Shown one piece after another: positions 40,602 to 61,542 of a stretch of 64,000 nt of DNA. The DNA comes from Paeniglutamicibacter quisquiliarum (GTDB taxonomy: Bacteria > Actinomycetota > Actinomycetes > Actinomycetales > Micrococcaceae): the NCBI RefSeq assembly GCF_019084045.1, contig NZ_JAHRED010000001.1, positions 1 through 64,000 on the forward strand, read 5' to 3'. The notes beneath the pieces are model-generated. The model worked only from the letters and a program-made list of their open reading frames with translations. It had not been told where the DNA came from and searched no databases. A program made the position numbers and the translations under genes. The number at the start of each line of letters is the position of its first letter. Position 1 is the first letter of the stretch.

Positions 40602-42920
40602 ATGGGGGCCCCATTCGACCGGCAGGCCATTCACCCGGCCATCGCGAGATTCCTCGCCTGGGACGACTCCGGCTACAGGTTGCTCTTCATCCGCGCCGCC
40701 GCCGGCACCGGACGAGACACCTTCGCCCGCTCGTGGATCGGGAACCGTTCCGGGGAGCTGCTTGACTTCTCCGGCGGGGGAATCGACGTGGCGGCCGAAA
40801 CGGACCGGCTGGTCGATCGGCTGCGCGCGGACAAGGCGCTGCATCTGGCCGTCATCCTGCCTCCGGGCGCCTCCATCTGGGAACTGGCCTCGCGGGCCCC
40901 CTGCCGGGTGGCAAACCATCGCGACCTGCTGCTGGATGCCGGGGAGACGGAGCAGCTCATTGGCGCCGGGGCACGAGTCGGCCAACTCGATGCCCACCGC
41001 ATCCACGAGTTGTCCGGAGGGTGGCTTGCCGCGAGCCGGGTCCTGGCCGCCGATCCGCAGGCCCAAAGCCGCGCGCAGCAGATTATCCGCAACGGCCTGG
41101 CCGTCTGGCTGGCCAACCGCGACCCCGACGGGGAATTGTCCGAGGCCGCGTTCCTGCCCGCGTTCGACCGGCGCACCGTGGAGGCGTTCTACGGGGAATT
41201 TTCCTTGGTGGTCCATACCTTGGAGGAGCTCGTCGAGGCGGGGCTGGTGCAGTCCGACGGGCGCGGCGGCTGGATGATGCCGCTGATGGTGCGCAAGGTG
41301 CTCGCCGAACGGGTCGGGCTGCGCGGGCGTGAACGCATTGCCGTCCTGGAGCAGGCTGCCGTCAACGCGATGGCCGCGACCCGCGGGGTGGGCGAGGCCG
41401 TGGATTCGGCCGTGGCGCGCCGCAGCTGGCCTGCCCTGTTGAACCTGCTGCTGGAACGGTGGGTGGACATCTTCATCGGAAACCCCCGGCAACTGGGCGT
41501 GATTGCGGCCAAGATCCCGCGCTTCATTTCCGAGCAAACCGAGTACATGCGCGTCGGCCTGCGCATCCTCGGCCAGAGTGACCGGGACGGGATGGCCCAG
41601 CAGCTCCCGGGGTTCGAACCCGACTACGACACCAACCAAACGGCCCAGCGCCTGCACCGGGACACCCTGCGGCTCTACCGCAAGCCCAATGCCCACGCCC
41701 TGACAGTGGGCATCCTGGAGATGCTCCATTTGCGGCTGGCGGGTCTGTATGAGGAGGCCGCCGTGGCAGGCACCCGGCTGCGCGACGCGTTGCACCGGGC
41801 GCTCGACACCCAACGGGTCAACCCGGCACTGGTGTCGCTGATTGAACTCCAAATCGGCATCTCGCTTCAGCTGGCCGGCCGGGACGTGCAGGCGCGCGCG
41901 GCCTATGAGCGGGGATTCCACTGGGCGCAAGTTTCCGGAAAGGCCTTCCTGCTGGCGGACCTGGCGGGAAAGCTTGCCCTGCTCGATGTCCTTGAAGGCG
42001 GCAGCGACACGGCGCTGCGCTGGCTGGCCGAGCACGATGCAGCCATCGGGGACGTCGGGTGGGGGCGGAAGATGGTGGAGCGCACCGCGATGATGGCCCG
42101 GGCGTTCCTGGCCCTGGCCCGCCTCGACTACGCGGGATTCGACGAGGTGATGGAGACCCTGCCACCCATGGTGGACAACGACGAATTCTGGTCGGTGCAT
42201 GCCCAACTGCTGGCCCTGCAAAAACTCAATGCCGGCATCTTTGACGCGGCCAGGACACTGATCTCTTCACTGCGCCGGGACCGTCGCTTCGCGGCGGCCG
42301 CGCCCCTGGCGCGGCGGCTGTTCGACGACACGCTCCTGTTGGCCGAGATCCTGGAACGCGGCGGCGTGCGCAGCGGAACCGGGATCGAAAACAGGGATCC
42401 GCTGCTGGTGGCGCTCGGCCACCTGCTGGGCGGGAATCCCGACGCGGCCCTGGCGGCCCTGCAGGAAGTCCCGCCCGCCGGGGGCATGCGATGGCGGGGA
42501 AACCTGGCGCTGTACCTGGATATCGCCGCCCGGAACCCCCTGGGCCCGACGCCGGCGGCGTTGCTGCGCGTGAAGCAGCAGCACCGGGACTCGGGAGTCT
42601 TGTATGAACTCGCGATCCTGGGCATGGTTCCAGGATGGTCAGAGGTGGGCAGGTCCCTGGACCTGGAGCCCGACGAACTCCAACGCCTGGGATATGCGCT
42701 GGATCTCGCGCCGGCGCCGTTGCCCAGGCGGCCGGTCCTAACCGTGCGGGAGCAGGAGATCTTGAGGCAATTGCGCGCGGGAATGACGCGGCGGCAGATC
42801 GCCGAGGCGGGCTACCGGTCCGAAAACACCGTCAAGACCCAGATGCGCAGCCTCTATCGGAAGTTGGAGGCCTCGGACGTGGAACAGGCGCTGGAAAACG
42901 CGCGGGCCTGGGGTCTCTGA
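40602..42920 (+). CDS. Large LuxR-family regulator with degenerate P-loop
   Basis: A 772-residue regulator with LAL/MalT-like architecture. The N-terminal region has an NTPase-like fold whose P-loop reads RAAAGTGRDTF, so the usual GKT/S is lost. The middle is helical, probably TPR-like. The C-terminal LuxR helix-turn-helix (about residues 710-770) contains LTVREQEILRQLRAGMTRRQ and SENTVKTQMRSLYRKL. ATG 40602 follows GGAAGAAGG. It is divergent from the SulP transporter, but 377 bp away, and convergent with the IclR gene. Target unknown; loss of the Lys suggests ATP is not hydrolysed in the normal way. Confidence 0.82.
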   Translation: MGAPFDRQAIHPAIARFLAWDDSGYRLLFIRAAAGTGRDTFARSWIGNRSGELLDFSGGGIDVAAETDRLVDRLRADKALHLAVILPPGASIWELASRAPCRVANHRDLLLDAGETEQLIGAGARVGQLDAHRIHELSGGWLAASRVLAADPQAQSRAQQIIRNGLAVWLANRDPDGELSEAAFLPAFDRRTVEAFYGEFSLVVHTLEELVEAGLVQSDGRGGWMMPLMVRKVLAERVGLRGRERIAVLEQAAVNAMAATRGVGEAVDSAVARRSWPALLNLLLERWVDIFIGNPRQLGVIAAKIPRFISEQTEYMRVGLRILGQSDRDGMAQQLPGFEPDYDTNQTAQRLHRDTLRLYRKPNAHALTVGILEMLHLRLAGLYEEAAVAGTRLRDALHRALDTQRVNPALVSLIELQIGISLQLAGRDVQARAAYERGFHWAQVSGKAFLLADLAGKLALLDVLEGGSDTALRWLAEHDAAIGDVGWGRKMVERTAMMARAFLALARLDYAGFDEVMETLPPMVDNDEFWSVHAQLLALQKLNAGIFDAARTLISSLRRDRRFAAAAPLARRLFDDTLLLAEILERGGVRSGTGIENRDPLLVALGHLLGGNPDAALAALQEVPPAGGMRWRGNLALYLDIAARNPLGPTPAALLRVKQQHRDSGVLYELAILGMVPGWSEVGRSLDLEPDELQRLGYALDLAPAPLPRRPVLTVREQEILRQLRAGMTRRQIAEAGYRSENTVKTQMRSLYRKLEASDVEQALENARAWGL

Positions 42921-42934
42921 GCGCCCGCCAGTCA

Positions 42935-43591
42935 CTACAGTTGCTTGGCCGTTTCCAGTTCCGTGCCGACCATCCGTGCCGCCCGGGCCAGGTTCTCCCC
43001 GAAGTCCCGGCCGGGGGAGACCTCAACCCGACTCAGTGGCATGGCCAGGCACAGCGTGGCAATCATCTGGTCGCGCAGCATCACGGGCGCGCTGACCGAG
43101 CCCAGGCCGGGGGTGCGCCGGCCCACCGATTCGACCCATCCGTGTTCCTCCACGGACTCCAGGGCCTCGGGGTCGTGCGACAGCAGCCGCCCGCTCGAAC
43201 CGTTGGGCAGCTCCAGGGTGGATCCCGCCGGAAGGGTGGCCTTGAGTTCGTGCTGGCTGTCCACCGTCACCCGGCAGATGCGCCGTTCTCCCCGGCGAAT
43301 CCACATTTGCGCCGTCTCCCCGGTGACGTTGCGCAACTCCGTGAGGATGGGGGTCGCGATGGATTCCAGCGCGGTGCGCACGAAGCGGTGGCCCAGCTTG
43401 AAATCGCCGTCGTCGACGCGGCGCAGGAACCCATACTCCACCATGGACAGGGCCAGGCGGTGGACAGTCGACACCGACAATCCGGTGCGCCGTCCCAGTT
43501 CGCTGGCCGAGGCGGAGGAACCCTCCACCGCGTCAAGGACCATGGCAACGCGTTCAAGCATGCGGTTGCTGGTGGTTGCCGGCTCGGCCAT
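42935..43591 (-). CDS. IclR family regulator of the CoA-transferase operon
   Basis: A 218-residue regulator. The winged helix is at residues 10-65 (ASELGRRTGLSVSTVHRLAL, GFLRR) and the ligand-binding GAF-like domain at 80-215 (LPNGSSGRLL). The start is ATG 43591, since AGGAG is 8 nt upstream. It is divergent from the CoA transferase operon, so it should control that operon, with a carboxylate or CoA ester as effector. Palindromes lie between the genes. Confidence 0.86.
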   Translation of the reverse strand: MAEPATTSNRMLERVAMVLDAVEGSSASASELGRRTGLSVSTVHRLALSMVEYGFLRRVDDGDFKLGHRFVRTALESIATPILTELRNVTGETAQMWIRRGERRICRVTVDSQHELKATLPAGSTLELPNGSSGRLLSHDPEALESVEEHGWVESVGRRTPGLGSVSAPVMLRDQMIATLCLAMPLSRVEVSPGRDFGENLARAARMVGTELETAKQL

Positions 43592-43658
43592 GGCTGACTC
43601 CTGGTGTTTCGGTTGGAGGGCGGGAATCGTTTCCCCGACCATGCTATGTGACGTGCTT

Positions 43659-43674
43659 TTCCGGAATTGCGGAA
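43659..43674. promoter_or_regulatory. Palindrome, candidate IclR site
   Basis: TTCCG (43659-43663) and CGGAA (43670-43674) flank a 6-bp spacer, 68 bp upstream of the IclR start. It could mediate autoregulation. Confidence 0.35.
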
Positions 43675-43753
43675 CGAGCAGGTGAGGGAGCCATTCGATC
43701 CCGGCGTCACAGGTCCCGGGAGGCCCGCGAGGCAGTTATTGCCGACGCGCCCC

Positions 43754-43782
43754 TTGCTGTGTGCTGGATCACTTGCTATGGT
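43754..43782 (+). promoter_or_regulatory. Probable promoter of the CoA-transferase operon
   Basis: TTGCTG (43754-43759) and TATGGT (43777-43782) are separated by 17 bp, a good fit to the primary sigma factor consensus. A start site near 43789 would give a leader of about 68 nt that contains the palindrome at 43806. Confidence 0.45.
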
Positions 43783-43805
43783 CTTCCTGCTCACAAGGAA
43801 TCATA

Positions 43806-43820
43806 TCCCACTGTATGGGA
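43806..43820. promoter_or_regulatory. Palindrome TCCCA-N5-TGGGA, candidate IclR operator
   Basis: A perfect inverted repeat with 5-bp spacer ends 36 bp before the CoA transferase start and just downstream of the proposed promoter. IclR bound here would block transcription until inducer is present. Confidence 0.5.
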
Positions 43821-43856
43821 AGTTTTGAAGAAGTCACCGAATAAAGGGCCACAACC

Positions 43857-45092
43857 ATGACTGAAAATCTCCACCTCCCGGGCAGCGCCCTGCCGCTCGA
43901 GGGAATCCGCGTTCTGGAACTCGGAAGCTTCATTGCCGCCCCGTTCGCCGCACGGCTCTTCGGTGACTTCGGGGCCGAAGTCATCAAGATCGAAAAGCCC
44001 GAGGGCGGCGACGAGCTGCGCGACTGGCGCAAGACCCGCGGCACCACCTCGATGCTTTTCCGCACCATGGGGCGCAACAAGAAATCCGTCGCGCTGGACC
44101 TGCGCAGCGAGCTGGGCCGCGAGGCCGTCCTGCGGATCGTGGCCAAGACCGACGTCGTGATCGAGAACTTCCGCCCGGGCACCCTGGAAAAGTGGGGACT
44201 GGGCCCCGAGGAACTTCACGCGGCCAACCCGAACCTGGTCATGGTCCGCATCTCCGGCTACGGCCAGACCGGCCCGTACAAGAACCGTGCCGGATTCGGC
44301 AGCTCCGCCGAGTCCTTCGCCGGCCTGCGCTACATCACCGGCGAACCGGACCGCCCGGCGGGCCGCGCGGCAGCCAGCGTCGGGGACACCGTCTCGGGTC
44401 TCTACGGCGTGATCGGCGCACTGATGCTGATGTTCCAGAAGGCCCAGGGCGTGAAAAGCGAGGGCCCGCAGATCGTCGACGTGGCGCTCTACGAGGGCGT
44501 CTTCTCCCTGCTCGAATCCCTGGTCCCGGACTACGACGCCTACGGCATGGTCCGCAAGCGCACCGGTGGCGCGCTTCCCGGCGTCGTGCCCACGGGCTCC
44601 TACCCGTGCGGGGACGAGCTGGAAGTGGTGATCGGCGGGAACTCGAACTCCGTGTTCGTCCGCCTCATGAAGGCCATCGGACGCGACGACCTGGCCGCCG
44701 ACGAAACCCTGCTGACCACCGAGGGGCGCGGCGCGCGCGAAGAGGAACTCAACGGCGCCATCGCCACCTGGACCTCCTCGATGCCGCTGGCCGAGGTGCT
44801 CACGGCTCTTGACACCGCCGGCGTCCCCGCCGGACCGGTCTACGACGCCCCCTCGATCGCCAAGGACGAGCACTACCTGGCCCGCGACATGATCCAGACC
44901 CACGAGGTCATCATCGAGGACGAGCCGGAACTCATCCGCTTCCCGGGCGTGGTCCCCAAGCTGCCCGGGCACGAGGGCCGCGTGAACTGGATCGGCCCGG
45001 AGCTGGGCGAACACACGCACGAGGTCCTCGCGGACCTCGCCGGCCTGAGCACCCTCGAAATCAACTCGCTCGGCGCCAAGGAGAAGAACTGA
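43857..45092 (+). CDS. Class III CoA transferase, CaiB/BaiF family
   Basis: A 411-residue family III CoA transferase that moves CoA from one acyl-CoA to a free acid without a covalent Glu-CoA ping-pong. Typical blocks are LEGIRVLELGSFIAAPFAAR, LGDFGAEVIKIE-like FGDFGAEVIKIEKPEGGDEL and IENFRPGTLEKWGLGPEEL. It is co-transcribed with an HMG-CoA-lyase-type enzyme one base downstream and with a 2-hydroxycarboxylate symporter. A succinyl-CoA-dependent activation of an imported hydroxy acid, such as citramalate, is the simplest reading. Family III enzymes with this role are known from Chloroflexus (succinyl-CoA:citramalate CoA-transferase). Confidence 0.85.
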   Translation: MTENLHLPGSALPLEGIRVLELGSFIAAPFAARLFGDFGAEVIKIEKPEGGDELRDWRKTRGTTSMLFRTMGRNKKSVALDLRSELGREAVLRIVAKTDVVIENFRPGTLEKWGLGPEELHAANPNLVMVRISGYGQTGPYKNRAGFGSSAESFAGLRYITGEPDRPAGRAAASVGDTVSGLYGVIGALMLMFQKAQGVKSEGPQIVDVALYEGVFSLLESLVPDYDAYGMVRKRTGGALPGVVPTGSYPCGDELEVVIGGNSNSVFVRLMKAIGRDDLAADETLLTTEGRGAREEELNGAIATWTSSMPLAEVLTALDTAGVPAGPVYDAPSIAKDEHYLARDMIQTHEVIIEDEPELIRFPGVVPKLPGHEGRVNWIGPELGEHTHEVLADLAGLSTLEINSLGAKEKN

Positions 45093-45093
45093 C

Positions 45094-45972
45094 ATGCGGA
45101 TCCAGATCACCGACGTCTTCCTGCGCGACGGGCTGCAGGACGAAAAAGTCATCGTCTCCACGTCCGACAAGCTCGAAATCGCAGACGCGCTGCTTGCCGC
45201 GGGGGTGAAGCGGCTCGAGGTCGCCTCGTTCGTCAATCCGGCCCGCGTGCCGCAGATGGGTGACGCCGCGGCAGTGCTGGCGGGCTTGCCGTCCGGCAGT
45301 GGGGCGACGTTCACCGCCCTGGCCCTGAACGGCAAGGGGATCGTGCGTGCGGTTGCGGCCGGCGCCACCGATCTCCAAGTGGTGACCTCCGCCAGCCAGG
45401 CCCACAGCAGCGCCAATGCCGGATCCAGCATCGAGCAGGCGCTCGAATCCCTGGGCTCCGACGTGGCGGCCCATCCCGGCATCAACTTCTTCGCCGGGAT
45501 CTCCACCGCCTTCACCTGCCCCTTCGAGGGCGAGGTCGATCCCGGCCACCTGCTGCGCGTGGTGCGCGGGTTCAAGGCCATGGGCATCACCCAGATCGGC
45601 CTGGCAGACACCCTGGGCACCACCCCCACCGGGCGGCTCATGGAGTCGGTGCGCCACATCCAGGACAAGGAGCCGGAGCTGACCTACTACCTCCACCTGC
45701 ACAACGCCCACGGGCAGGCGCTGGACACCGTCGATGCGGCGATCGAAGCGGGCATCACCCGCTTTGACAGCGCGCTGGGAGGCTACGGCGGCTGCCCCTT
45801 CGCCCCGGGTGCCGCCGGAAACCTCGCCACCGAGGAACTCGTGGCGCACCTGCACGCCGCAGGGCACGAGACAGGCATCGACGAGGCCGCGCTCACCCGT
45901 GCCGTGCAGCTGGGCCGCGACGCGGTCTCCAACTCCCCGGCACTTGAGTCCAACGCCCTGACCGGGCACTAA
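45094..45972 (+). CDS. HMG-CoA-lyase-family carbon-carbon lyase
   Basis: A 292-residue TIM-barrel lyase. Motifs are FLRDGLQDEKVIV (catalytic Arg and metal-binding Asp), the metal pair in LHLHNAHGQALD, and GGCPFAPGAAGN with catalytic-loop C234. Known members cleave HMG-CoA to acetoacetate and acetyl-CoA, or citramalyl-CoA to pyruvate and acetyl-CoA. The metal loop has HxHN instead of the HxHD usual in HMG-CoA lyase, so the substrate may differ. It starts one base after the CoA transferase stop. No hydratase or carboxylase gene for a leucine pathway is present, so a direct hydroxy-acid substrate is likely. Confidence 0.85.
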   Translation: MRIQITDVFLRDGLQDEKVIVSTSDKLEIADALLAAGVKRLEVASFVNPARVPQMGDAAAVLAGLPSGSGATFTALALNGKGIVRAVAAGATDLQVVTSASQAHSSANAGSSIEQALESLGSDVAAHPGINFFAGISTAFTCPFEGEVDPGHLLRVVRGFKAMGITQIGLADTLGTTPTGRLMESVRHIQDKEPELTYYLHLHNAHGQALDTVDAAIEAGITRFDSALGGYGGCPFAPGAAGNLATEELVAHLHAAGHETGIDEAALTRAVQLGRDAVSNSPALESNALTGH

Positions 45973-46047
45973 CACCACTCCCATCCACCGCACGCCGCAA
46001 GACTCCGCCCGGAGCCCGGTGCGCCCCATCATTCTGCGAGGACGACG

Positions 46048-47463
46048 ATGTCTCAGATTGAAAACCCCACCCCCACCCTTGACGGCCAACACCCCGACGA
46101 GCCAGGCGTCCAGCGACGCGTGGAGGCCACCGTCGGCAAGCTGCGCGGCACGCACTTTGCCGGCCCGCGCGGCACCCGGATCGCCAGCCTGCCGGCGGCG
46201 CTCTTCATCGTGCTGGCCGCCATGGTGTTCATCGCCGCGGCCACCGGCAAGCTGCCCGATTCCATGCTCTCGGGCTTCACCGTCACGATCCTGCTCGGCG
46301 GGCTGCTGATCTGGATCGGCAACCTGTTCCCGGTGGTGCGCGACTTCGGCCTGCCCACGGTGCTGTGCACCTTCATCCCCGCCACGCTGATGTCCTTCAA
46401 CCTGCTGCCGGCGAACCTGGTGGAGGTCGTGGAAAACTTCGTCAAGGGACACGGCTTCCTGGACTTCTTCGTCATCACCATCATCGCCGGCTCCATCCTG
46501 GGCATGCCGCGCGCCCTGCTGCTGAAGGCCGGACCGCGCTTCGCGGTGCCGCTGGTCGGCTGCCTGGTCGCCACCTTCGTGCTCGTCGGGCTGCTGGGCG
46601 CGGCCACCGGCTTCGGGTTCATGGAGGGCATCCTGTTCATCGCCGCCCCGATCATGGCCGGCGGCCTGGGCGTGGGCGCACTGCCCATGAGCGAGATGTA
46701 CGCCTCCCGCACCGGCCTGGACTCCGCGACGTTCATGGGAGACCTGATGTCCGCCGTCGTGGTGGCCAACATCGTGTGCATCATCATCGCCGGCATCTAC
46801 AACGGCCTGGGCAAGACCCGCAAGCAGTTCTTCGTCGGCTTCAACGGCCACGGCGAGCTGATGCGCATCAAGGGCAAGAAGTCCGAGCTTTCCCTGCCCC
46901 CGAAGAACGAGGCCTCCTCGTTCATTGCCCTGGGCAAGGGCCTGCTCTTCGCGGGCGCGCTGTTCATCTTCGGCCAGCTGGTCGGCTCCTACCTCGAGGT
47001 CCTGCACCCCTACGCCTGGACCATCATTGCCGCCGCCGCGGTGAAGATCTTCGGCTGGCTGCCCAAGGACATCGAGGAATCCACCGCCGACTGGGGCGAC
47101 ATGGTGGGTGCCACCATGGTCCCGGCGCTGTTGGTGGGCGTGAGCATCAGCTACATCGACATGGGCGAGGTCGTTGCCTCGCTGAGCAACCCGAAGTTCA
47201 TCGTGCTGACCGTTGCCACGGTGTTGATCGCGACCCTGACCTCCGGCATCCTGGGCTGGCTCATGAAGTTCAACTTCGTCGAGGCCTCCATTACCCCGGG
47301 CCTGGTCATGGCCGACACCGGCGGCAGCGGAGACGTCGCGGTGCTCAGTGCCGCAAACCGGATGCACCTGATGCCCTTCGCCGCGCTGACCAATCGGCTC
47401 GGCGGCGCCCTGGTGCTCTTCGTGACCTCGCTGCTGGTGCCGCTGCTGGCCATCTCCTCCTGA
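46048..47463 (+). CDS. 2-hydroxycarboxylate transporter family symporter
   Basis: A 471-residue membrane protein of the 2-HCT family (CitS, CitP, MleP). The two reentrant loops carry the family motifs: MAGGLGVGALPMSEMY in the first half and DTGGSGDVAVLSAANRMHLM in the second. About 11 membrane segments follow a hydrophilic N-tail of about 50 residues. Characterised members import citrate, malate or lactate by sodium or proton symport, all 2-hydroxy acids. The location behind a CoA transferase and lyase suggests a substrate such as citramalate. Start ATG 46048. Confidence 0.88.
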   Translation: MSQIENPTPTLDGQHPDEPGVQRRVEATVGKLRGTHFAGPRGTRIASLPAALFIVLAAMVFIAAATGKLPDSMLSGFTVTILLGGLLIWIGNLFPVVRDFGLPTVLCTFIPATLMSFNLLPANLVEVVENFVKGHGFLDFFVITIIAGSILGMPRALLLKAGPRFAVPLVGCLVATFVLVGLLGAATGFGFMEGILFIAAPIMAGGLGVGALPMSEMYASRTGLDSATFMGDLMSAVVVANIVCIIIAGIYNGLGKTRKQFFVGFNGHGELMRIKGKKSELSLPPKNEASSFIALGKGLLFAGALFIFGQLVGSYLEVLHPYAWTIIAAAAVKIFGWLPKDIEESTADWGDMVGATMVPALLVGVSISYIDMGEVVASLSNPKFIVLTVATVLIATLTSGILGWLMKFNFVEASITPGLVMADTGGSGDVAVLSAANRMHLMPFAALTNRLGGALVLFVTSLLVPLLAISS

Positions 47464-47491
47464 TCCCGCACACTTACACCGAAAGAAGCCA

Positions 47492-48025
47492 ATGGCCACC
47501 ATCATCACCCTCGACGGAAAGACCCCGGAGATCGACGACACGGCCTGGCTGGCGCCAACCGCCGCCATTATCGGGAACGCGGGCGTCGGCCCCGGATCCG
47601 GTGTCTTCTACGGCGCGGTGCTTCGGGCCGACACGGAATCCATCCGGATGGGCGAGCACAGCAACCTGCAGGACAACGCCGTGCTCCACGCCGACCCGGG
47701 CTTCCCGACCCGCATCGGGAACTTCGTGAGCATCGGCCACGGTGCGGTGCTCCACGGCTGCACCGTGGGCGACGGGGCGCTGGTCGGGATGAATGCCACG
47801 GTGCTCAACGGCGCGGTGATCGGCGAGGGCTCGCTCATCGCCGCCAACGCGCTGGTGCTCGAGGGCACCGTGGTTCCGCCACGCTCGCTGGTTGCCGGGG
47901 TGCCGGCCAAGGTGCGCCGCGAACTGACCGACGCCGAGGTGCTACATTGCCGCTCCAACGCCGAAACCTACGTGGAAATCACGCGGGCTCATGCGGCCGC
48001 GACGGCACAGGCCCTTGCCCTGTAA
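47492..48025 (+). CDS. Gamma-carbonic-anhydrase-like hexapeptide protein, CaiE/PaaY type
   Basis: A 177-residue left-handed beta-helix protein with hexapeptide repeats. The three zinc His of the gamma-carbonic anhydrase family are H66 (NAVLHADPG), H83 and H88 (IGHGAVLHGC). It starts 28 bp after the symporter gene, so it belongs to the operon. Relatives CaiE and PaaY also sit in operons with CoA-ester enzymes; PaaY is a thioesterase that frees CoA from dead-end esters. Either carbonic anhydrase or a CoA-salvage thioesterase is possible; context favours the latter. Confidence 0.85.
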   Translation: MATIITLDGKTPEIDDTAWLAPTAAIIGNAGVGPGSGVFYGAVLRADTESIRMGEHSNLQDNAVLHADPGFPTRIGNFVSIGHGAVLHGCTVGDGALVGMNATVLNGAVIGEGSLIAANALVLEGTVVPPRSLVAGVPAKVRRELTDAEVLHCRSNAETYVEITRAHAAATAQALAL

Positions 48026-54264: not shown

Positions 54265-55809
54265 CTAGACGCCGATTCTGTCGGAGTCGAATTTCGGTGC
54301 CTGGCTCCTTGCCGCCTTGCTGTGGCGCAGGTGCTGGATACCGGTGATCAGCAGGGCGATCACCAATAGTCCGTAGAGCACCAGGGTGACGGGGCTGCCG
54401 ACCAGGATCGACAGGTCGCCTTCCGAGACGGTCAGCGCGCGGCGCAGTTCCGTTTCGGCCAGGGGGCCGAGGATCACCGCGATCAGCACGGGCGCGAGCG
54501 GGAACTTGTAGCGGCGCATCAGGAAGCCCAGCAGCCCGATGGCCAGCAGGATCCACAGGTCAACGATCGATGAACTGATCGCGTAGACGCCAAGTACCGA
54601 GAGCACGGTGATGCCGGCGTAGAGGTAGTGCCGGGGAATGAGCAGGAGCTTGGCCCAGAGCACGGCGAACTGCATGTTCAGGATCAGCAGGATGACCAAG
54701 CCGATGAACAGCGACGCGAGCAGCGTCCAGACCATCGGGCCACTGCGTTCGAACAGCAGGGGACCTGGCTGCATTCCGTACTGCTGGAAGGCCGCCAGCA
54801 TGATGGCCGCCGTCGCCGAGGTGGGAAGGCCCAGTGCGAGAAGTGCGCCCATGGCGGTGCCGGCGGTCGCGTTTGCCGCCGCTTCCGGGGCGGCAACGCC
54901 CCGGATGGACCCGCTGGTGCCGAAGTCGGTGTCGCCGTTGCGGGCAGCGAGCTTCTTTTCGGTGCCATAGGCCAGGAAGGTGGGGACCTCGGAACCGCCG
55001 GCGGGGATGACGCCGAACGGTACACCGAATGCCGTGCCACGCAGCCAGGCCGGAAGCGCCCGCCGGATGTCCCGCAGGTCCAGGCGGGGCTTGCCCTTGG
55101 ACTCGACCCGCGTGGCCGCATCGTCGCGGTGGATGCGCGAGGCAATGTGAAGGACTTCGCCGAGCGCCAGCAGCCCGACGGTGATTACCACGATTGACAT
55201 GCCGTCGAAGAGCTGCGGCAGGCCCAGCGTAAAGCGCGCCGTTCCCGACGGTCCGTCAACGCCGACCAGTGCGAGGACCAGACCCAGTCCCAGGGACAGC
55301 AGGCCCTTGACCACCGAGTCGGAAACCACGGAGGAAATCGCGAGGAACGCGAAGACTGCCAGGGCGAAGTATTCGGCGGGGCCGAACGCCGTTGCCATCT
55401 TGACGAGCACCGGGGCGAAGAAGACCACGACCGTCGTGGCGATGAGTCCGCCGATGAAGGCACCCATGGCGGCGGTGGCCAATGCCTTGGCAGCCCTGCC
55501 GTCGAGGGCCATGCGGTGGCCTTCGAAGGTGGAGGCGATGGCCGATGAGTTGCCGGGCGTGTTCAGCAGGATGCCGGAGGTTGAATCCCCGAAGAGCCCG
55601 CCGTAATAGACGCCGGCGAACATGATGAATGCCGCGGTTGGATCCAGTGAAAACGTGATGGGCAGCAGGAGGGCAACGGCCATGGCCGAGCCGAGACCTG
55701 GCAATACGCCCACCGCGGTGCCGAGGACCGCACCGATCAGCACCCACAGGAGATTCATGGGTGTCAGGGCCGAGGCGAACCCCTCCATGAGCATGGTTAT
55801 GGATTCCAT
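54265..55809 (-). CDS. tctA: Tripartite tricarboxylate transporter, large membrane subunit TctA
   Basis: A 514-residue membrane protein with about 11-12 helices. The family blocks are GVLPGLGSAMAVALLLPITF near residue 40, GDSTSGILLNTPGNSSAIAS near 75 and FGVIPAGGSEVPTFLAYGTE in the second half. It forms the transport channel of a sodium-driven importer with TctB and the binding protein TctC. It starts at ATG 55809, one base after the tctB stop. The system is divergent from the CitA/CitB-type kinase. Confidence 0.93.
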   Translation of the reverse strand: MESITMLMEGFASALTPMNLLWVLIGAVLGTAVGVLPGLGSAMAVALLLPITFSLDPTAAFIMFAGVYYGGLFGDSTSGILLNTPGNSSAIASTFEGHRMALDGRAAKALATAAMGAFIGGLIATTVVVFFAPVLVKMATAFGPAEYFALAVFAFLAISSVVSDSVVKGLLSLGLGLVLALVGVDGPSGTARFTLGLPQLFDGMSIVVITVGLLALGEVLHIASRIHRDDAATRVESKGKPRLDLRDIRRALPAWLRGTAFGVPFGVIPAGGSEVPTFLAYGTEKKLAARNGDTDFGTSGSIRGVAAPEAAANATAGTAMGALLALGLPTSATAAIMLAAFQQYGMQPGPLLFERSGPMVWTLLASLFIGLVILLILNMQFAVLWAKLLLIPRHYLYAGITVLSVLGVYAISSSIVDLWILLAIGLLGFLMRRYKFPLAPVLIAVILGPLAETELRRALTVSEGDLSILVGSPVTLVLYGLLVIALLITGIQHLRHSKAARSQAPKFDSDRIGV

Positions 55810-55810
55810 G

Positions 55811-56452
55811 TCAGATCAGTCCTTCCAAGAAGCCGGAGGGCAGGTTGAGGCCGAGGCCGGCGTTGAAGGCCAGCTGGATGACCGCGGAAAACAGGATCGA
55901 GATGCTGATGTCGAAGAGCGGGCGCTTGCTGCCCAGTGCACGGCAGACGACCCAGAAGAGGCCGGCGGCGCTGAGAATCCAGCCCAGGACGGGCAGCGCC
56001 ACAATGAATGCGGCCACGCCGCCGATGACCGTGCCCAACGTCTTCCAGTCCGAATAGGCTTTTCGCTTGCCGGTGGCGGAGGGCGGTGCGGTGGGGCGAT
56101 AGATCGACTTGCCCTCGGTGTCGCCCAGGTCTCCGAGCATGTCGCTGGAGAAATCGGGGTTGTGCCCCTCGCTGTCGGCGTGCGGGAAACGCCTGGTGCG
56201 CAGGATCTGGATCGTGTGGATGGCCGCCATGAGGAAGAGCAACACGCAAACGATGGTGGGGAAGAACTGCGGCCCCGGAACGCTGGTGCCCATCACCTCC
56301 ATGGTGGCGGTTCCGTAGCTGAGGAAACCGGCAAGGGTGAAGACCAGTGCCGGGACGATCAGTTCGCTGCGACCCGACCAGAAGCCGGTGATTCGCACCG
56401 GGTAGTCCTCTGTCTTCCGCCCGGTAGCGGGGGAATCTTCTATCGTCTTCAC
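55811..56452 (-). CDS. tctB: Tripartite tricarboxylate transporter, small subunit TctB
   Basis: A 213-residue membrane protein with four helices, the minor subunit of the TTT importer. The central cytoplasmic stretch of about 50 residues is longer than usual. GTG 56452 overlaps the tctC stop by 4 bp (GTGA), so translation is coupled. It is poorly conserved in sequence, but position and topology fix the role. Confidence 0.88.
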   Translation of the reverse strand: MKTIEDSPATGRKTEDYPVRITGFWSGRSELIVPALVFTLAGFLSYGTATMEVMGTSVPGPQFFPTIVCVLLFLMAAIHTIQILRTRRFPHADSEGHNPDFSSDMLGDLGDTEGKSIYRPTAPPSATGKRKAYSDWKTLGTVIGGVAAFIVALPVLGWILSAAGLFWVVCRALGSKRPLFDISISILFSAVIQLAFNAGLGLNLPSGFLEGLI

Positions 56453-57450
56453 AGTCCCAGCCCTTCCACGATGTCCTTGGTGATGGCGACCTCGGAGTCG
56501 ATGAACTCCTCGAATTCGTCGCCGGTCATGAAGCTGTCCGTCCAGCTATTGCGTTCAAGCGCTCCCTGCCAGTGCTCCGTCTGGCGATACTCGGAGACGA
56601 TGTCCACGAATTCCTGCTTTTGCTCCTCCGTGATGCCCGGGGCAGCGGCAACGCCGCGCCAGTTGGCCATCGAGGCGTCGACGCCCTGTTCCTTGAACGT
56701 GGGAACGTCGACCCCGGGGAGGCGTTCCTCCGAGGAAATCGCCAACGCGCGCAGGGTTCCGGCTTCGATCTGGTCGGCAACCTCGTTGTAGCCGGAGATG
56801 CCGCCGACGGTGGTCCCGGAAAGCATGGAGGTCAGCGCCTCGCCGCCGCCGGAGTAGGCGATGTAGTTGGTCTTGAGCGGATCAATGCCGACCTTCTGCG
56901 CGACCAGACCCGTCAGCAGGTGGTCGATGGACCCCAGCGAACCGCCGGAAATCGATGTTCCGCCCGGATCTTCCTTCCAGCGCTTGATGAAGTCATCCAG
57001 CGTCTGGAACTCCGATTTGGCCGGTACCACCAACACGGCGTAGTCATCTGCAAGCCGGGCGATGGGAACGATGTCGTCGAAGGTGGACTCGGAGTCGGCG
57101 AGTTCGATGGCGCCGACCATGACGCCGCCGGTGACCATCAACATGTCGTGGCGACCGTGCATCTGGACGAACTGGCTCAAGCCGATGGTTCCTCCGGCAC
57201 CCGGCACATTGACGACCTGCGCGTTGTTCACCACGCCACCGGACTTCAGGGCCTGCTGCGACTCGCGGGCGAACCCGTCCCAGCCGCCGCCGGGTGCCGC
57301 CGGGGCCATGAGGACGAGTTTCGAACGCGCGGTCGCCTCGCCTCCGCTTGCGGCCGCATTGACCAGTGCCAGACCCGCCACGACAGCGACGACGGTGCCG
57401 TATAGCGTCTTCTTGATTATGCTCTTGCTCATTTTCATCCGTAATCTCAT
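56449..57450 (-). CDS. tctC: Tripartite tricarboxylate transporter, binding protein TctC
   Basis: A 333-residue extracytoplasmic binding protein of the Bug/TctC family. A signal peptide covers about residues 5-40 (SIIKKTLYGTVVAVVAGLAL). The ligand loops are LMAPAAPGGGWDGFARESQQ and NVPGAGGTIGLSQFV. It lacks an obvious lipobox Cys. It captures a di- or tricarboxylate for TctAB. The open frame extends upstream to 57519; ATG 57450 is preferred, though no start shows a good Shine-Dalgarno. Confidence 0.9.
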   Translation of the reverse strand: MRLRMKMSKSIIKKTLYGTVVAVVAGLALVNAAASGGEATARSKLVLMAPAAPGGGWDGFARESQQALKSGGVVNNAQVVNVPGAGGTIGLSQFVQMHGRHDMLMVTGGVMVGAIELADSESTFDDIVPIARLADDYAVLVVPAKSEFQTLDDFIKRWKEDPGGTSISGGSLGSIDHLLTGLVAQKVGIDPLKTNYIAYSGGGEALTSMLSGTTVGGISGYNEVADQIEAGTLRALAISSEERLPGVDVPTFKEQGVDASMANWRGVAAAPGITEEQKQEFVDIVSEYRQTEHWQGALERNSWTDSFMTGDEFEEFIDSEVAITKDIVEGLGL

Positions 57451-57536
57451 GGGTGGTGGACCGGGTGTCATTGGCGGGTCCCTCGACCACAAAGGTGCCA
57501 GAGAAGTGATCTGAGGCACAGCGAAAATGTGCTTTA

Positions 57537-57548
57537 GTTCATAAGAAC
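57537..57548. promoter_or_regulatory. Inverted repeat in the tctC/kinase divergent promoter
   Basis: GTTC-ATAA-GAAC lies in an AT-rich stretch (57530-57570), 87 bp before tctC and 48 bp before the kinase gene. CitB-type regulators bind AT-rich sites in such divergent regions, so this is a candidate box. Confidence 0.45.
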
Positions 57549-57595
57549 AGTAAAGAAAACAAAGTCAACGAGACCTGGAAGAGGCCTGGATCGAC

Positions 57596-59200
57596 GTGCA
57601 TTCCCTATCGAAAAACCGCCGCCGTGCGCAGCTGCTGGCGTTGCAGTTGGGGATCGTGCTGGGGCTGATGGGCGCGGTCTCGATTGTGGTCCTGGCTTTC
57701 GAGGACCACCGAACACAAGAGGTGGCCTTCGACCGTGTCCACACCGTGGCCGTGCAAATGGCAGCCCAGGAGACTGTCCAGGAGCATCTGGGGAAGCCCC
57801 GGGCCACGGAGGTGATAGCACCCATCGCGAATCTGGCGACGGCGGTCTCGGGCGTCCGGTATGTGACGGTGGCGGATCTGGCAGGAATTCGGGTGGCACA
57901 CCCGGATCCGGACCGCATCGGGGAGCCCGTGTCGTCGGACCATGACCCGGTGCGCGCCGGCGAGTCCTTCCGGGGAACGGAGGACGGCCCGCAGGGCGTT
58001 ACTTTGCGGGCCAAGGAGCCTGTGTGGTTCGACGGTGAAGTGGTCGGTACCGTGTCCGTGGGGATCCTGCAGAGCGATATCCGCGGTGAGCTGCTCGACG
58101 TCGTGGGAACGGTTGCACCTTGGATCCTTGGGGCCGCGGCGCTGGGAACAATTGCCTCGGCGTTGACCGCGAGAGTGGTACGCCGACGGATCTACGGAGT
58201 GGAGCCGGAGGCCGTCGCGGGCTTGCTGCAGTCCCAGCAGGCGCTGCTTTTCAGCGTGCATGACGGCGTCGTGGGTGTTGACACTGAGGGAAGATTGACC
58301 CTGGTGAACGACGAAGCGCGGCGGTTGCTGGGGCTGGAGGGCGAGGTTGTGGGTGCAAAGGCCGCCGACGTGCTCGACCCGACCGTCCACGCCCAGCTCA
58401 GCAGCGAGGCCCCGGAAGCAGAGGAAACGCAATTCGTCCTCTCGGGGGAACGCATCCTGGTGGCAACCCGCCGAGAGGCGTTGGCCAACGGCAAATCGCT
58501 GGGCCGGACCTTGACCCTGGTGGATCGGACCGAAATGGAAGCCACCTTGCGCGAGCTGAAGGGCCAGCGAAGCCTGGCCGATGCCTTGGCGTCGCAGGCC
58601 CACGAATTTTCCAACCGATTGCACGTGCTGTCCGGCTACCTGTCCTTTGGCGAACCGGGGGAGGCGGCGGAATACCTGCAAAGAATCAGCGGCGCGACCC
58701 TCGGCGCCGAGGCCGGTAGCCTTGGGGACCCGGCCCTCTCGGGACTCGTTGGCGCCAACGCGGCCAACGCGCGGGAAGCCGGGGTGCGATTGGTGGTCGA
58801 TCCGGAGTCCGGCACCGAGCCGGATTGGCGCGCCGATGAGGACGCCCTGACGGTGGTGGGCAACCTGCTGAGCAACGCGATCGAGGCCGCCGGCGACGGG
58901 GGGCAGGTGCGGCTGTTGCTGAATGCCGGGGCGAAGGGACTGCGGATCTGTGTGGAAGACAGCGGCCCGGGCATCGCCCCGAGCGCGGTCGAGGAGGTCT
59001 TTAGGCGCGGGGTGAGCAGCAAGCCGGGGGCCGGAGTGCAACACGGTATCGGGCTGGCGCTGGTCGACCGGGTCATCAGGCGCCGTGCCGGCTCGGTTGA
59101 AGTGTCCTCGGGCGACCTGGGCGGGGCCATGATCACCGTCGAATGGAACTGGCTGGCAGCAACGGTGCTGCCGGGAAGCGAAGTGGGGGAAATTGCATGA
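57596..59200 (+). CDS. Sensor histidine kinase, CitA/DcuS type
   Basis: A 534-residue carboxylate sensor. Two membrane helices (about 13-34 and 170-195) flank a periplasmic PAS-like domain in which AVSGVRYVTVADLAGIRVAH is family-like. A cytoplasmic PAS domain (about 205-310), the phosphoacceptor His H336 (SQAHEFSNRLHVLSGYL) and the ATP-binding domain (NLLSNAIEAA, GPGI, HGIGLALV) follow. GTG 57596 is the start. It should sense the tricarboxylate moved by TctABC or processed by TcuA. Confidence 0.92.
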   Translation: MHSLSKNRRRAQLLALQLGIVLGLMGAVSIVVLAFEDHRTQEVAFDRVHTVAVQMAAQETVQEHLGKPRATEVIAPIANLATAVSGVRYVTVADLAGIRVAHPDPDRIGEPVSSDHDPVRAGESFRGTEDGPQGVTLRAKEPVWFDGEVVGTVSVGILQSDIRGELLDVVGTVAPWILGAAALGTIASALTARVVRRRIYGVEPEAVAGLLQSQQALLFSVHDGVVGVDTEGRLTLVNDEARRLLGLEGEVVGAKAADVLDPTVHAQLSSEAPEAEETQFVLSGERILVATRREALANGKSLGRTLTLVDRTEMEATLRELKGQRSLADALASQAHEFSNRLHVLSGYLSFGEPGEAAEYLQRISGATLGAEAGSLGDPALSGLVGANAANAREAGVRLVVDPESGTEPDWRADEDALTVVGNLLSNAIEAAGDGGQVRLLLNAGAKGLRICVEDSGPGIAPSAVEEVFRRGVSSKPGAGVQHGIGLALVDRVIRRRAGSVEVSSGDLGGAMITVEWNWLAATVLPGSEVGEIA

Positions 59201-59931
59201 TCAGGACGCTGATTGTCGACGACGATCCGGATATCGCACGCCTGCACGCCCGCTACGTTGACGCGCTGGACGGTTTCGAGGTGGCGGGCGTGCTCGAGCG
59301 CGGCGGGCCGGTCCTGGCGTTCCTCGAGGAGCAGCCCGTTGACTTGGTGCTTCTCGACGTGAACCTCCCCGACATGGATGGCCTGCAGGTGCTGGAGGAC
59401 CTGCGCGGCAGCGGGCACGAGACGGGAGTCATCATGATCACCGCCGCCAGCGAACGCGACACCGTGCGGTTCGCCGTGGGTCGTGGAATCGACGACTACC
59501 TGGTCAAGCCCTTCACCGTGACCGACTTCAACCGTCGGCTCGAGGCATTCCGGGTCGCCCGATCCGAGGCCGCCCCCGAAGTCGGACCCATTCTGGACCA
59601 GGGGGATATCGATTTCATGCTACGAGCGGGCGAGCCGGAAGGCCGGGCCGCGAGCCGCGGCGCGGCGGCCCCGGTCGACTCCGGCGCGCCGCTTCCCAAG
59701 GGATTTTCCCAGCCAACGGTCCAGTTGGTGGGCCAGGCGCTGCGCGAGGCGGCAGGCAGGGGCGGGGCCGGCGACATGTCCGCAGCCGAGGTCTCCGAGG
59801 GCTGCGGAATCTCGCGGGTGAGTGCGCGGCGGTACCTGGAGATGATGACTGGCCGCGGGCTCGCGGAGTTGCGGCCCAAGTACGGCGCGCCGGGCCGCCC
59901 GGAACACCGCTACCGCTGGATCGGGGAATAG
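59197..59931 (+). CDS. Response regulator, CitB/DcuR type
   Basis: A 244-residue response regulator. The receiver domain (1-120) has acidic D8-D10, phosphoacceptor D55 in VLLDVNLPD and the Lys in DYLVKPF. The C-terminal domain (about 170-240) has a helix-turn-helix in SEGCGISRVSARRYLEMM, typical of the CitB/DcuR class. ATG 59197 overlaps the kinase stop by 4 bp. Phosphorylated protein should activate the tctC-B-A operon and perhaps tcuA. Confidence 0.93.
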   Translation: MIRTLIVDDDPDIARLHARYVDALDGFEVAGVLERGGPVLAFLEEQPVDLVLLDVNLPDMDGLQVLEDLRGSGHETGVIMITAASERDTVRFAVGRGIDDYLVKPFTVTDFNRRLEAFRVARSEAAPEVGPILDQGDIDFMLRAGEPEGRAASRGAAAPVDSGAPLPKGFSQPTVQLVGQALREAAGRGGAGDMSAAEVSEGCGISRVSARRYLEMMTGRGLAELRPKYGAPGRPEHRYRWIGE

Positions 59932-59991
59932 CCGGGCTGAACCGGACGAGCACCTGGAGGATGTCGACCCTCTGGCGCACTCTGTATATTT

Positions 59992-60001
59992 GTGTATACA
60001 C
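59992..60001. promoter_or_regulatory. Perfect palindrome before tcuA
   Basis: GTGTATACAC at 59992-60001 is a perfect 10-bp palindrome in an AT-rich patch (TGTATATTTGTGTATACAC), 48 bp before the tcuA start. GntR-type repressors of the FCD class often bind GTATAC-like cores, and such a gene follows tcuA. Confidence 0.55.
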
Positions 60002-60048
60002 TCGTATCCAGAAGGCTCCGGACGGGGTCGAAGACAGGGAGGCTCGCG

Positions 60049-61542
60049 ATGAGCAGCACGGTAAACGAAGCAGGCAACGAACACGTGGCAGATGTCATCG
60101 TCGTGGGCGGCGGCAACGCCGCCTTCACCGCGGCACACGCCGCGGCGGTGCGCGGACGCAAGGTGCTTCTGCTCGAGAAGGCGCCGCAGGAGCTCTTCGG
60201 CGGAAACAGCTACTACACGGCGGGCGCGACCCGCATCGCCCACAACGGCATCGATGACCTGCGCGACTTCATCGAATACGACGACCGCCACGCCGTCAGC
60301 GAGGTCCCGCCGTACTCGGCCGCCGAGTACGCCGCCGACCTCGTGAAGGTCACCGAGGGGCGCAACGACCCGGAACTGACCGAGGTCCTGGTCAATGAGG
60401 CAGCACCGGGCCTGCGCTGGCTCCAGGGTCTGGGCCTGAAGTACCGCCTGATGTACGAGCGCCAGGCCTACGAACGCGAGGACGGCAGCTACCTCTTCTG
60501 GGGCGGCCTGCATGTCGGAAACGTTGGCGGCGGCGAGGGCCTGATGGCCGACCACGTTGCCGTGGCCGAGAAGCTCGGCACCGAAGTCCGCTACGGACAG
60601 GACGTCTTTGACCTGATCCTCGAGGGCGGCGCCGTCAAGGGCGTGAAGGTCCGCGCCGAGGACGGAAGCGTGCAGGAACTGCGCGCCGAATCCGTGGTCC
60701 TGGGGGCCGGAGGCTTCGAATCCAACCCGGAAATGCGCCGCAAGCACCTCGGAGAGGGCTGGGAGAACGCCAAGATTCGCGGCACCGCCTTCAACAACGG
60801 CGACATGATCACCGCCGGCCTGGCCGCAGGAGCGGCCAAGGGCGGGGACTGGGGAACCTGCCACTCGGTGCAGTGGGATGCGTTCACCGCCAAGAACGAG
60901 TCAAACCGCGAGCTGACCAACCGCTTGACCCGCCAGAGCTACCCGCTGGGCATCATCGTGAACAACCGCGGCGAGCGCTTCCTGGACGAGGGCGAGGACT
61001 TCCGCAACTACACCTATGCCAAGTACGGCAAGGTCATCCTGCAGCAGCCCGACTCGATCGCCTACCAGATCTTCGACGCCACGCTGCGCCCGATGCTGCG
61101 CACCGAGGAATATGACATGCCCGGCATCTCGGTGGAATCCGCCGACACCGTAGAGGAACTGGCGGCGAAGATCGGCGTGGATCCCGCGGCCCTGGCCAAG
61201 ACCATCACCGACTACAACGAATCGATCGATACCTCCAAGCCGTTCGATCCGAACGTCAAGGATGGCCGCGCGGCAAACACCGTGCCGCGGAAGTCGAACT
61301 GGGGCCACCCGCTGGTCACCGGTCCGTACTACGCCTACGGGGTCACTTGCGGCATCACCTTCACCTTCGGCGGCCTGAAGTCCGATACCCACGGCCGCGT
61401 GCTGGACGAGGCGGGCGAGCACCTGCCCGGGCTCTATGTCTGCGGCGAAATGCTCGGTGGCCTCTTCTCCGCGAACTACCCCGGTGGTTCCGGGCTTGCA
61501 GCCGGCGTCGTGTTCGGGCGCCGTGCCGGTACGCTGGCCTAG
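60049..61542 (+). CDS. tcuA: FAD-dependent tricarballylate dehydrogenase, TcuA-like
   Basis: A 497-residue flavoprotein of the fumarate reductase/succinate dehydrogenase flavoprotein family. The FAD motif VGGGNAAFTAA is at about residues 19-29. Later blocks GGFESNPEMRR, NNRGERFLDEGEDFRNYTY and SANYPGGSGLAAGVVFGR match TcuA. Salmonella TcuA oxidizes tricarballylate to cis-aconitate for entry into the citric acid cycle. The partner TcuB, which reoxidises TcuA in Salmonella, is absent from this window. ATG 60049 has AGGGAGG upstream; the open frame from 59992 overlaps the palindrome and is rejected. Confidence 0.82.
   Translation: MSSTVNEAGNEHVADVIVVGGGNAAFTAAHAAAVRGRKVLLLEKAPQELFGGNSYYTAGATRIAHNGIDDLRDFIEYDDRHAVSEVPPYSAAEYAADLVKVTEGRNDPELTEVLVNEAAPGLRWLQGLGLKYRLMYERQAYEREDGSYLFWGGLHVGNVGGGEGLMADHVAVAEKLGTEVRYGQDVFDLILEGGAVKGVKVRAEDGSVQELRAESVVLGAGGFESNPEMRRKHLGEGWENAKIRGTAFNNGDMITAGLAAGAAKGGDWGTCHSVQWDAFTAKNESNRELTNRLTRQSYPLGIIVNNRGERFLDEGEDFRNYTYAKYGKVILQQPDSIAYQIFDATLRPMLRTEEYDMPGISVESADTVEELAAKIGVDPAALAKTITDYNESIDTSKPFDPNVKDGRAANTVPRKSNWGHPLVTGPYYAYGVTCGITFTFGGLKSDTHGRVLDEAGEHLPGLYVCGEMLGGLFSANYPGGSGLAAGVVFGRRAGTLA

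Follow-up and report, generated by a model that had tools for sequence, protein, structure and literature searches.

Which acid might be taken up and broken down by the operon at positions 43857-48025 of the window, the 64,000-nucleotide stretch of Paeniglutamicibacter quisquiliarum DNA analysed here? Four genes on the + strand encode a class III coenzyme A (CoA) transferase, a lyase of the 3-hydroxy-3-methylglutaryl-CoA (HMG-CoA) lyase family, a symporter of the 2-hydroxycarboxylate transporter (2HCT) family and a hexapeptide protein, opposite an IclR-type regulator. The gene families and binding residues make it likely that the operon serves the uptake and CoA-dependent cleavage of 2-substituted malates, whatever the side group R. 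Tentatively, we favour an arylmethyl group as R, with eucomate, or else 2-benzylmalate, as the substrate.

The operon and its regulation

Family calls are based on Pfam and NCBIfam cut-offs, and all profile scores are given in bits. By these profiles, all five genes named in a first-pass annotation of this DNA were found, four on the + strand and the IclR gene on the − strand; the interval given there (43592-48025) leaves the IclR gene almost wholly outside. The features are as follows.

42935..43642, − strand: IclR-family regulator, PF09339 and PF01614 above cut-off, divergent from the operon
43806..43820, no strand: palindrome TCCCA-N5-TGGGA, likely operator, beginning 51 bases upstream of the transferase gene; also present ahead of the transferase in related loci
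43857..45092, + strand: class III (CaiB/BaiF) CoA transferase, PF02515, 350 against a cut-off of 23
45094..45972, + strand: HMG-CoA-lyase-family lyase, proposed 2-substituted malyl-CoA lyase, PF00682, 140 against a cut-off of 29
46048..47463, + strand: 2HCT-family symporter with binding residues not of the citrate type, PF03390, 419
47492..48025, + strand: gamma-carbonic-anhydrase/PaaY-like hexapeptide protein, below each equivalog cut-off

The four + strand genes are spaced by 1, 75 and 28 bases, and 214 bases separate the IclR gene from the transferase. Judged from this layout, the transferase, lyase, 2HCT transporter and hexapeptide genes form a real operon behind the IclR gene and the palindrome. 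The gene identities and the single operon of the first-pass annotation are upheld by the families above their Pfam cut-offs, by these short gaps and by the linkage of transferase and lyase in relatives.

The relatives were drawn from the best 80 of 377 matching stretches in a scan of named genomes, and the operon's own group comprises 63 loci (L045-L107; L numbers denote loci) with lyase identities of 48-88%. Because the first gene caller, a composition score, misses genes, the loci were counted by tblastn with chosen query proteins, absences being weaker than presences, within flanks of up to 6 kb, some of them shortened at contig ends. Paeniglutamicibacter sulfureus and P. terrestris have lyases that share 87-88% identity with the one in the window. 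A survey of gene order, named as a check in the first-pass annotation, bears out the linkage: the transferase accompanies the lyase in 63/63 loci, on the same strand and less than 200 bases away in 60/63, and an IclR gene lies within the fetched flank of 56/63. The 2HCT gene is found in 33/63 loci and a MatC/CitMHS-type carrier in 19/63, never both, and tblastn found none of the transporter types searched for in the flanks of five of the 63. Of the operon's genes, that for the hexapeptide protein is most often missing (20/63 loci have it), and no copy was found next to the operon in L045 or L055, the two loci from Paeniglutamicibacter.

Among 396 genomes sampled from the phylum, four hold a lyase match at 1e-60, the window genome's own among them; the lyase is therefore spread wide but thin. 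In 297 genomes of the order, with 29 other loci and flanks of 1.5 kb, a single locus holds transferase, lyase and 2HCT genes together, at identities of 59%, 52% and 60%, respectively. Gene linkage exceeds chance. The first-pass annotation knew of no described operon with this exact set, a point for which part of the literature was covered; the set itself is widespread in Actinomycetota.

The only exact copy of the palindrome in the window is that at 43806-43820; with one mismatch allowed there are four copies, no more than chance. A scan of 32 loci (L045-L071, L081, L083, L087, L090 and L098) gave 26 exact copies, of which 22 lie 31-108 bases before the transferase and the other four lie 34-99 bases before an isopropylmalate-dehydrogenase-like gene (L051, L061, L063 and L069), with none elsewhere in those loci. 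No exact palindrome precedes the transferase in 10/32 loci, and TTATCAAATAATGATAA stands at the equivalent position in three Rhodococcus loci. In some loci a divergent gene lies on the other side of the site, such as the phenol monooxygenase gene of L047, 240 bases away, and the FAA-hydrolase gene of L049. From these positions, the palindrome is the likely operator of the operon, which would be IclR-controlled. The isopropylmalate-dehydrogenase-like gene, present in 7/63 loci and accompanied by a 2-hydroxyacid dehydrogenase in six of these seven, seems to be under the operon's regulation because the palindrome precedes it in four loci; in the other three no exact copy was found before it. The dehydrogenase pair occurs in some Micrococcaceae. 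D-malate dehydrogenase was considered for this palindrome-linked gene and rejected, since its substrate-loop motif is, by eye, unlike the D-malate/tartrate type, which a gene of L035 does carry (also by eye); we take the two motifs to be distinct.

In the window genome, eight exact sites exist, including the operon's own. One of them (L160 2202, C1:312701) directly follows a second IclR-type gene, and the genes after it were read by eye as an alcohol dehydrogenase, an MFS transporter and an aldehyde dehydrogenase. Another lies inside the coding sequence of a homologue of the thiamine diphosphate (ThDP) enzyme discussed below and is taken as chance, and no tie to the operon was made for the remaining five. 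A 772-aa regulator at 40602-42920, whose sole recognised domain is C-terminal and of the LuxR type, converges tail to tail with the IclR gene, leaving 14 bases between the two gene ends, and also adjoins the operon in L045 and L055.

Lyase, transporter and proposed reactions

The lyase and the transporter, together with the absence of any hydratase gene from the + strand set, argue for the uptake of a 2-substituted malate, which would then receive CoA and be split into acetyl-CoA and a 2-oxo acid. The substrate class would be HOOC-C(OH)(R)-CH2-COOH. The 2HCT symporter would bring the acid into the cell, the class III transferase would load CoA onto the CH2-COOH end, and the lyase would split the 2-R-malyl-CoA into acetyl-CoA and R-CO-COOH. 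We infer the reactions, the substrate and its stereochemistry, and the CoA donor from the families, linkage, operator and residue changes read in the sequence. An already hydroxylated substrate, a 2-hydroxy-acid transporter and CoA activation followed by cleavage had all been expected in the first-pass annotation, and they agree with the missing hydratase, with the PF03390 match and its malate-like core ligands, and with a class III transferase and an HMG-CoA-lyase-family lyase that occur together in all 63 loci.

The lyase scores 266 against the cut-off of 246 for the HMG-CoA lyase subfamily (NF004283), and it belongs to the HMG-CoA lyase superfamily, carrying R11, D12, H201, H203, C234 and N243, which we take to be its metal and catalytic residues. 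The residue comparison covers 62 lyases of at least 51% identity, in which genome G114 is counted twice (L006 and L035), and two HMG-CoA lyases, human HMGCL and the Pseudomonas aeruginosa enzyme (PDB 2ftp). The 62 clade lyases have R or K51, L78, S99, H104, G110, T138, F140 and A205, with N (57) or D (5) at position 204, whereas the two HMG-CoA lyases have W51, P78, A99, F104, N110, C138, L140, D204 and T205. R51 and H104 may help to hold the carboxylate on the carbinol carbon. With human HMGCL as the root of the tree, the operon's lyase group falls within a clade of 87 sequences (0.999), with both HMG-CoA lyases outside it, and is joined next by the Chloroflexota lyase L112 (0.938), which has R51, L78, S99, H104, G110 and F140 in common with the clade. 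The L112 genome contains a 2-methylfumaryl-CoA isomerase (871 against a cut-off of 725), and its gene row consists of lyase, LeuC-like, LeuD-like and CoA transferase genes (the Leu names by eye). That isomerase is described in an excerpt of PMC9813914 as an enzyme of the 3-hydroxypropionate bi-cycle.

These residues bear on 3-hydroxy-3-methylglutarate (meglutol) or HMG-CoA as the substrate, the main alternative of the first-pass annotation. The NF004283 score and the human succinate-HMG CoA transferase among the transferase's solved relatives speak for it. Nevertheless, the lyase differs from the HMG-CoA lyase of leucine breakdown at positions 51, 78, 99, 104, 110, 138, 140, 204 and 205, and HMG is without the 2-hydroxycarboxylate motif recognised by the transporter family. 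The residues at 51, 78, 99, 104, 138, 140 and 205, the tree position and the lyase's standing as the single relative in its genome at 1e-40 (four PF00682 places exist there, with no second relative at that level) weaken this identity, and HMG is now very improbable.

Related clusters were also seen. A second Chloroflexota lyase, L148, which adjoins a transferase, was set aside as a citramalate reference because its neighbours look hydantoinase-like and isochorismatase-like. L148 and L117 (Sphingopyxis) are alike and represent a different cluster of lyase and CoA transferase, the neighbours being, by eye, two hydantoinase-like genes and an isochorismatase-like gene. In L039 and L040, related lyases (43%) stand beside CoA transferase genes (in L039 there is one to either side) and neighbours that appear by eye to be tripartite tricarboxylate transporter subunits.

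The symporter possesses the two GGXG motifs and the conserved arginine (R428) of the 2HCT family. Aligned with CitS, it retains the hydroxyl and carboxylate ligands as S427 and R450, forming a malate-like core. Of the three ligands of citrate's third carboxylate, Y348 is retained, and L207 and T424 stand for CitS N186 and R402; the ligand roles in CitS are taken from an excerpt of PMC5451387. These changes are general, with L or I at CitS position 186 in 35/35 sequences, T or S at position 402 in 34/35 and A in place of Q424 in 32/35, in a set of sequences that includes the window's. Since two citrate ligands are replaced, citrate is an unlikely substrate and an uncharged side group is probable; the CitS equivalog is likewise not reached (263 against 600), and citrate uptake was rejected on the loss of the two ligands. 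Methyl and benzyl groups both fit such a pocket, and T and A at the pocket positions would leave room for a larger group.

The transferase is a class III CoA transferase with PF02515 above cut-off and D177, presumably its catalytic aspartate. It reaches none of the NCBIfam equivalog models, the best being succinate-glutarate (229 against 750). The hexapeptide protein scores 151.5 as gamma carbonic anhydrase, 136 as PaaY and 115 as CaiE, all below the equivalog cut-offs (250 for gamma carbonic anhydrase, NF050158). Its best matches of solved structure include gamma carbonic anhydrases, and it retains H66, H83 and H88, to which we attribute a role in zinc binding.

Neighbouring genes and the side group

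The identity of the 2-oxo acid is read from the gene company, in which recurrent aromatic neighbours suggest an arylpyruvate rather than pyruvate. One of them is a 4-hydroxyphenylpyruvate dioxygenase gene (TIGR01263, 425 against a cut-off of 277), located in the flank of L077, L080, L084, L088, L093, L094, L096 and L100, with a copy cut by the contig end in L079. A search of 49 genomes from 57 loci (L049, L053, L060, L062, L089, L101, L104 and L110 left out) found it in 20/49 genomes as 29 copies, eight of them in the flank against 0.05 expected by chance; the probability calculated for this ignores relatedness. The neighbourhoods show four arrangements (Pseudonocardia, two Rhodococcus groups and Streptomyces), and five of the eight genomes with a flanking dioxygenase hold two or three copies. 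In addition, a cupin gene that, among solved structures, matches homogentisate dioxygenases alone occurs in 6/63 loci, a phenol 2-monooxygenase gene (1075 against a cut-off of 560) is oriented divergently to the operon in L047 and has 56% relatives beside L045 and L055, and aromatic-acid-symporter-like transporters lie by L075, L106, L110, L111 and L119-L121. A ThDP enzyme is present in 17/63 loci, none of which has the dioxygenase in its flank; in the nine ThDP loci with genomes searched, no dioxygenase was found at 1e-60 (Fisher 0.007 without correction for relatedness). Genes for one or the other subunit of an E1 oxo-acid dehydrogenase stand beside seven loci (L072, L083, L085, L088, L096, L099 and L100).

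Eucomic acid, which an excerpt of PMC3213623 names as 2-hydroxy-2-(4-hydroxybenzyl)butanedioic acid, is proposed because it is the simplest substrate giving 4-hydroxyphenylpyruvate by this chemistry. Eucomate, that is 2-(4-hydroxybenzyl)malate, would yield 4-hydroxyphenylpyruvate, and 2-benzylmalate would yield phenylpyruvate. The dioxygenase would next convert the oxo acid to homogentisate in some relatives, and the ThDP enzyme would receive it in Micrococcaceae and Corynebacterium. Glyoxylate as the cleavage product was rejected, the ThDP enzyme retaining the glutamate of the R-H-E motif; to our knowledge, glyoxylate carboligase is without that glutamate.

Several observations weigh against the arylmethyl group. 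The homogentisate dioxygenase match is weak (best 1.4e-8), and the aromatic symporters scored (L075, L104 and L111) are all below cut-off. The models matched by the ThDP enzyme are for the most part those of acetolactate synthases, whose cut-offs it misses by far, and the E1 genes of L072 score best to pyruvate dehydrogenase models, again below cut-off; both could fit pyruvate and citramalate. In the window genome, no gene reaches the cut-off for 4-hydroxyphenylpyruvate dioxygenase (97 against 277), and the nearest ThDP homologue (49%) is on another contig (C30, L136 2944-8751), near genes for an AsnC-type regulator and an amino-acid permease, both below cut-off, and for an aminotransferase that passes the HisC cut-off as well as that of PRK03321. 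No palindrome was found before a 4-hydroxyphenylpyruvate dioxygenase gene in the 32-locus scan. The substrate may also differ between lineages.

The main rival is citramalate, the leading substrate of the first-pass annotation, which would be imported, converted to citramalyl-CoA and cleaved to acetyl-CoA and pyruvate. The transporter pocket would also suit a methyl group, the sister lyase L112 comes from a Chloroflexota genome with 2-methylfumaryl-CoA isomerase, the ThDP enzyme and the E1 enzymes (at some loci nearest to pyruvate dehydrogenase) could act on pyruvate, and citramalate is reported from sugar-beet root exudate in an excerpt of PMC3176199. However, pyruvate is of no use to the dioxygenase, homogentisate-dioxygenase-like, phenol-monooxygenase and aromatic-symporter-like neighbours and would not explain their recurrence, and an aerobe should need no dedicated ThDP enzyme for pyruvate; citramalate therefore becomes the second reading and is rather unlikely. 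Another aliphatic malate, such as 2-isopropylmalate, from which acetyl-CoA and an oxo acid like 2-oxoisovalerate would arise, is less probable still. The lyase and transporter evidence applies to it equally, the E1 alpha and beta genes by seven loci could serve branched-chain oxo acids, and the isopropylmalate-dehydrogenase-like gene with its palindrome is in keeping with it; yet the aromatic neighbours are left unexplained, and in alignments read by eye the side-chain pocket motif of that dehydrogenase is unlike isopropylmalate dehydrogenases.

Returning to the arylmethyl malates, a broader and more speculative version is a pathway for the plant acids eucomate and piscidate, with an aryl-accepting 2HCT pocket, a new arylmethyl-malyl-CoA lyase and the arylpyruvate entering tyrosine-type breakdown; we regard it as possible but doubtful. 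Piscidate, 2-(4-hydroxybenzyl)tartrate, has one more hydroxyl than eucomate and might, speculatively, enter by the palindrome-linked dehydrogenase pair. Among the literature matches listed, which concern plant, food and clinical chemistry, none reports bacterial breakdown of eucomic acid, piscidic acid or benzylmalate, which does not prove its absence. If the arylmethyl substrate is correct, a substrate class would be assigned to a widespread actinobacterial operon matched so far by general models only (HMG-CoA lyase, CaiB and citrate symporter), with a new specificity for 2HCT transporters and for the HMG-CoA-lyase family, and soil bacteria would have a route to use plant acids such as eucomic acid.

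Two further features were noted. An FAA-hydrolase domain is fused to an RraA-like aldolase domain near the operon in L049 (2372-3838), L047 (11437-12849) and L069, the domain scan covering L047. Elsewhere in the window, 54265-61542 is a likely tricarballylate/citrate utilisation cluster, with the FAD-dependent tricarballylate dehydrogenase TcuA at 59992-61542 (543 against a cut-off of 369) and TctA, TctB, TctC and two-component system genes read by eye.

Comparison with known systems

Human HMGCL and the P. aeruginosa lyase share the family and the catalytic residues of the operon lyase, which differs from them at positions 51 (R/K against W), 78 (L against P), 104 (H against F), 138 (T against C), 140 (F against L) and 205 (A against T); no leucine-pathway gene is among the annotated neighbours of the operon. 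CitS, CitP and MleP have the family, above the Pfam cut-off, and the hydroxyl and carboxylate ligands in common with the operon 2HCT, which differs from CitS in two of the three third-carboxylate ligands. CitP and MleP carry M where the operon clade has T, according to an excerpt of PMC5451387.

Itaconate degradation resembles the operon in CoA transfer followed by formation of acetyl-CoA and a 2-oxo acid, and its lyase is of the CitE-like type. Neither a hydratase nor a CitE-like lyase is among the four + strand genes. The itaconate pathway includes a hydratase according to an excerpt of PMC12290011, and an excerpt of PMC6689899 states that the Mycobacterium enzyme Rv2498c does not resemble HMG-CoA lyases in sequence.

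The pair of citramalate CoA transferase and (R)-citramalyl-CoA lyase, like the operon, loads CoA onto a 2-hydroxy diacid and then forms acetyl-CoA and a 2-oxo acid, by two protein families equal to those of the operon. We take the pair to originate from Chloroflexus and its enzyme families to be as named here, and, unlike the operon, it includes no transporter that we know of. Its EC numbers are given in an excerpt of PMC8307300. Chloroflexota relatives, any of which may be the characterised pair, are 38-45% (transferase) and 39-44% (lyase) identical to the operon proteins and have different neighbours. The analogy to Chloroflexus drawn in the first-pass annotation is nonetheless apt, L112, as sister of the lyase clade and from a genome with 2-methylfumaryl-CoA isomerase, being the only apparent kinship to a citramalyl-CoA lyase. 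We propose that the operon represents this known transferase-lyase scheme with a new substrate specificity.

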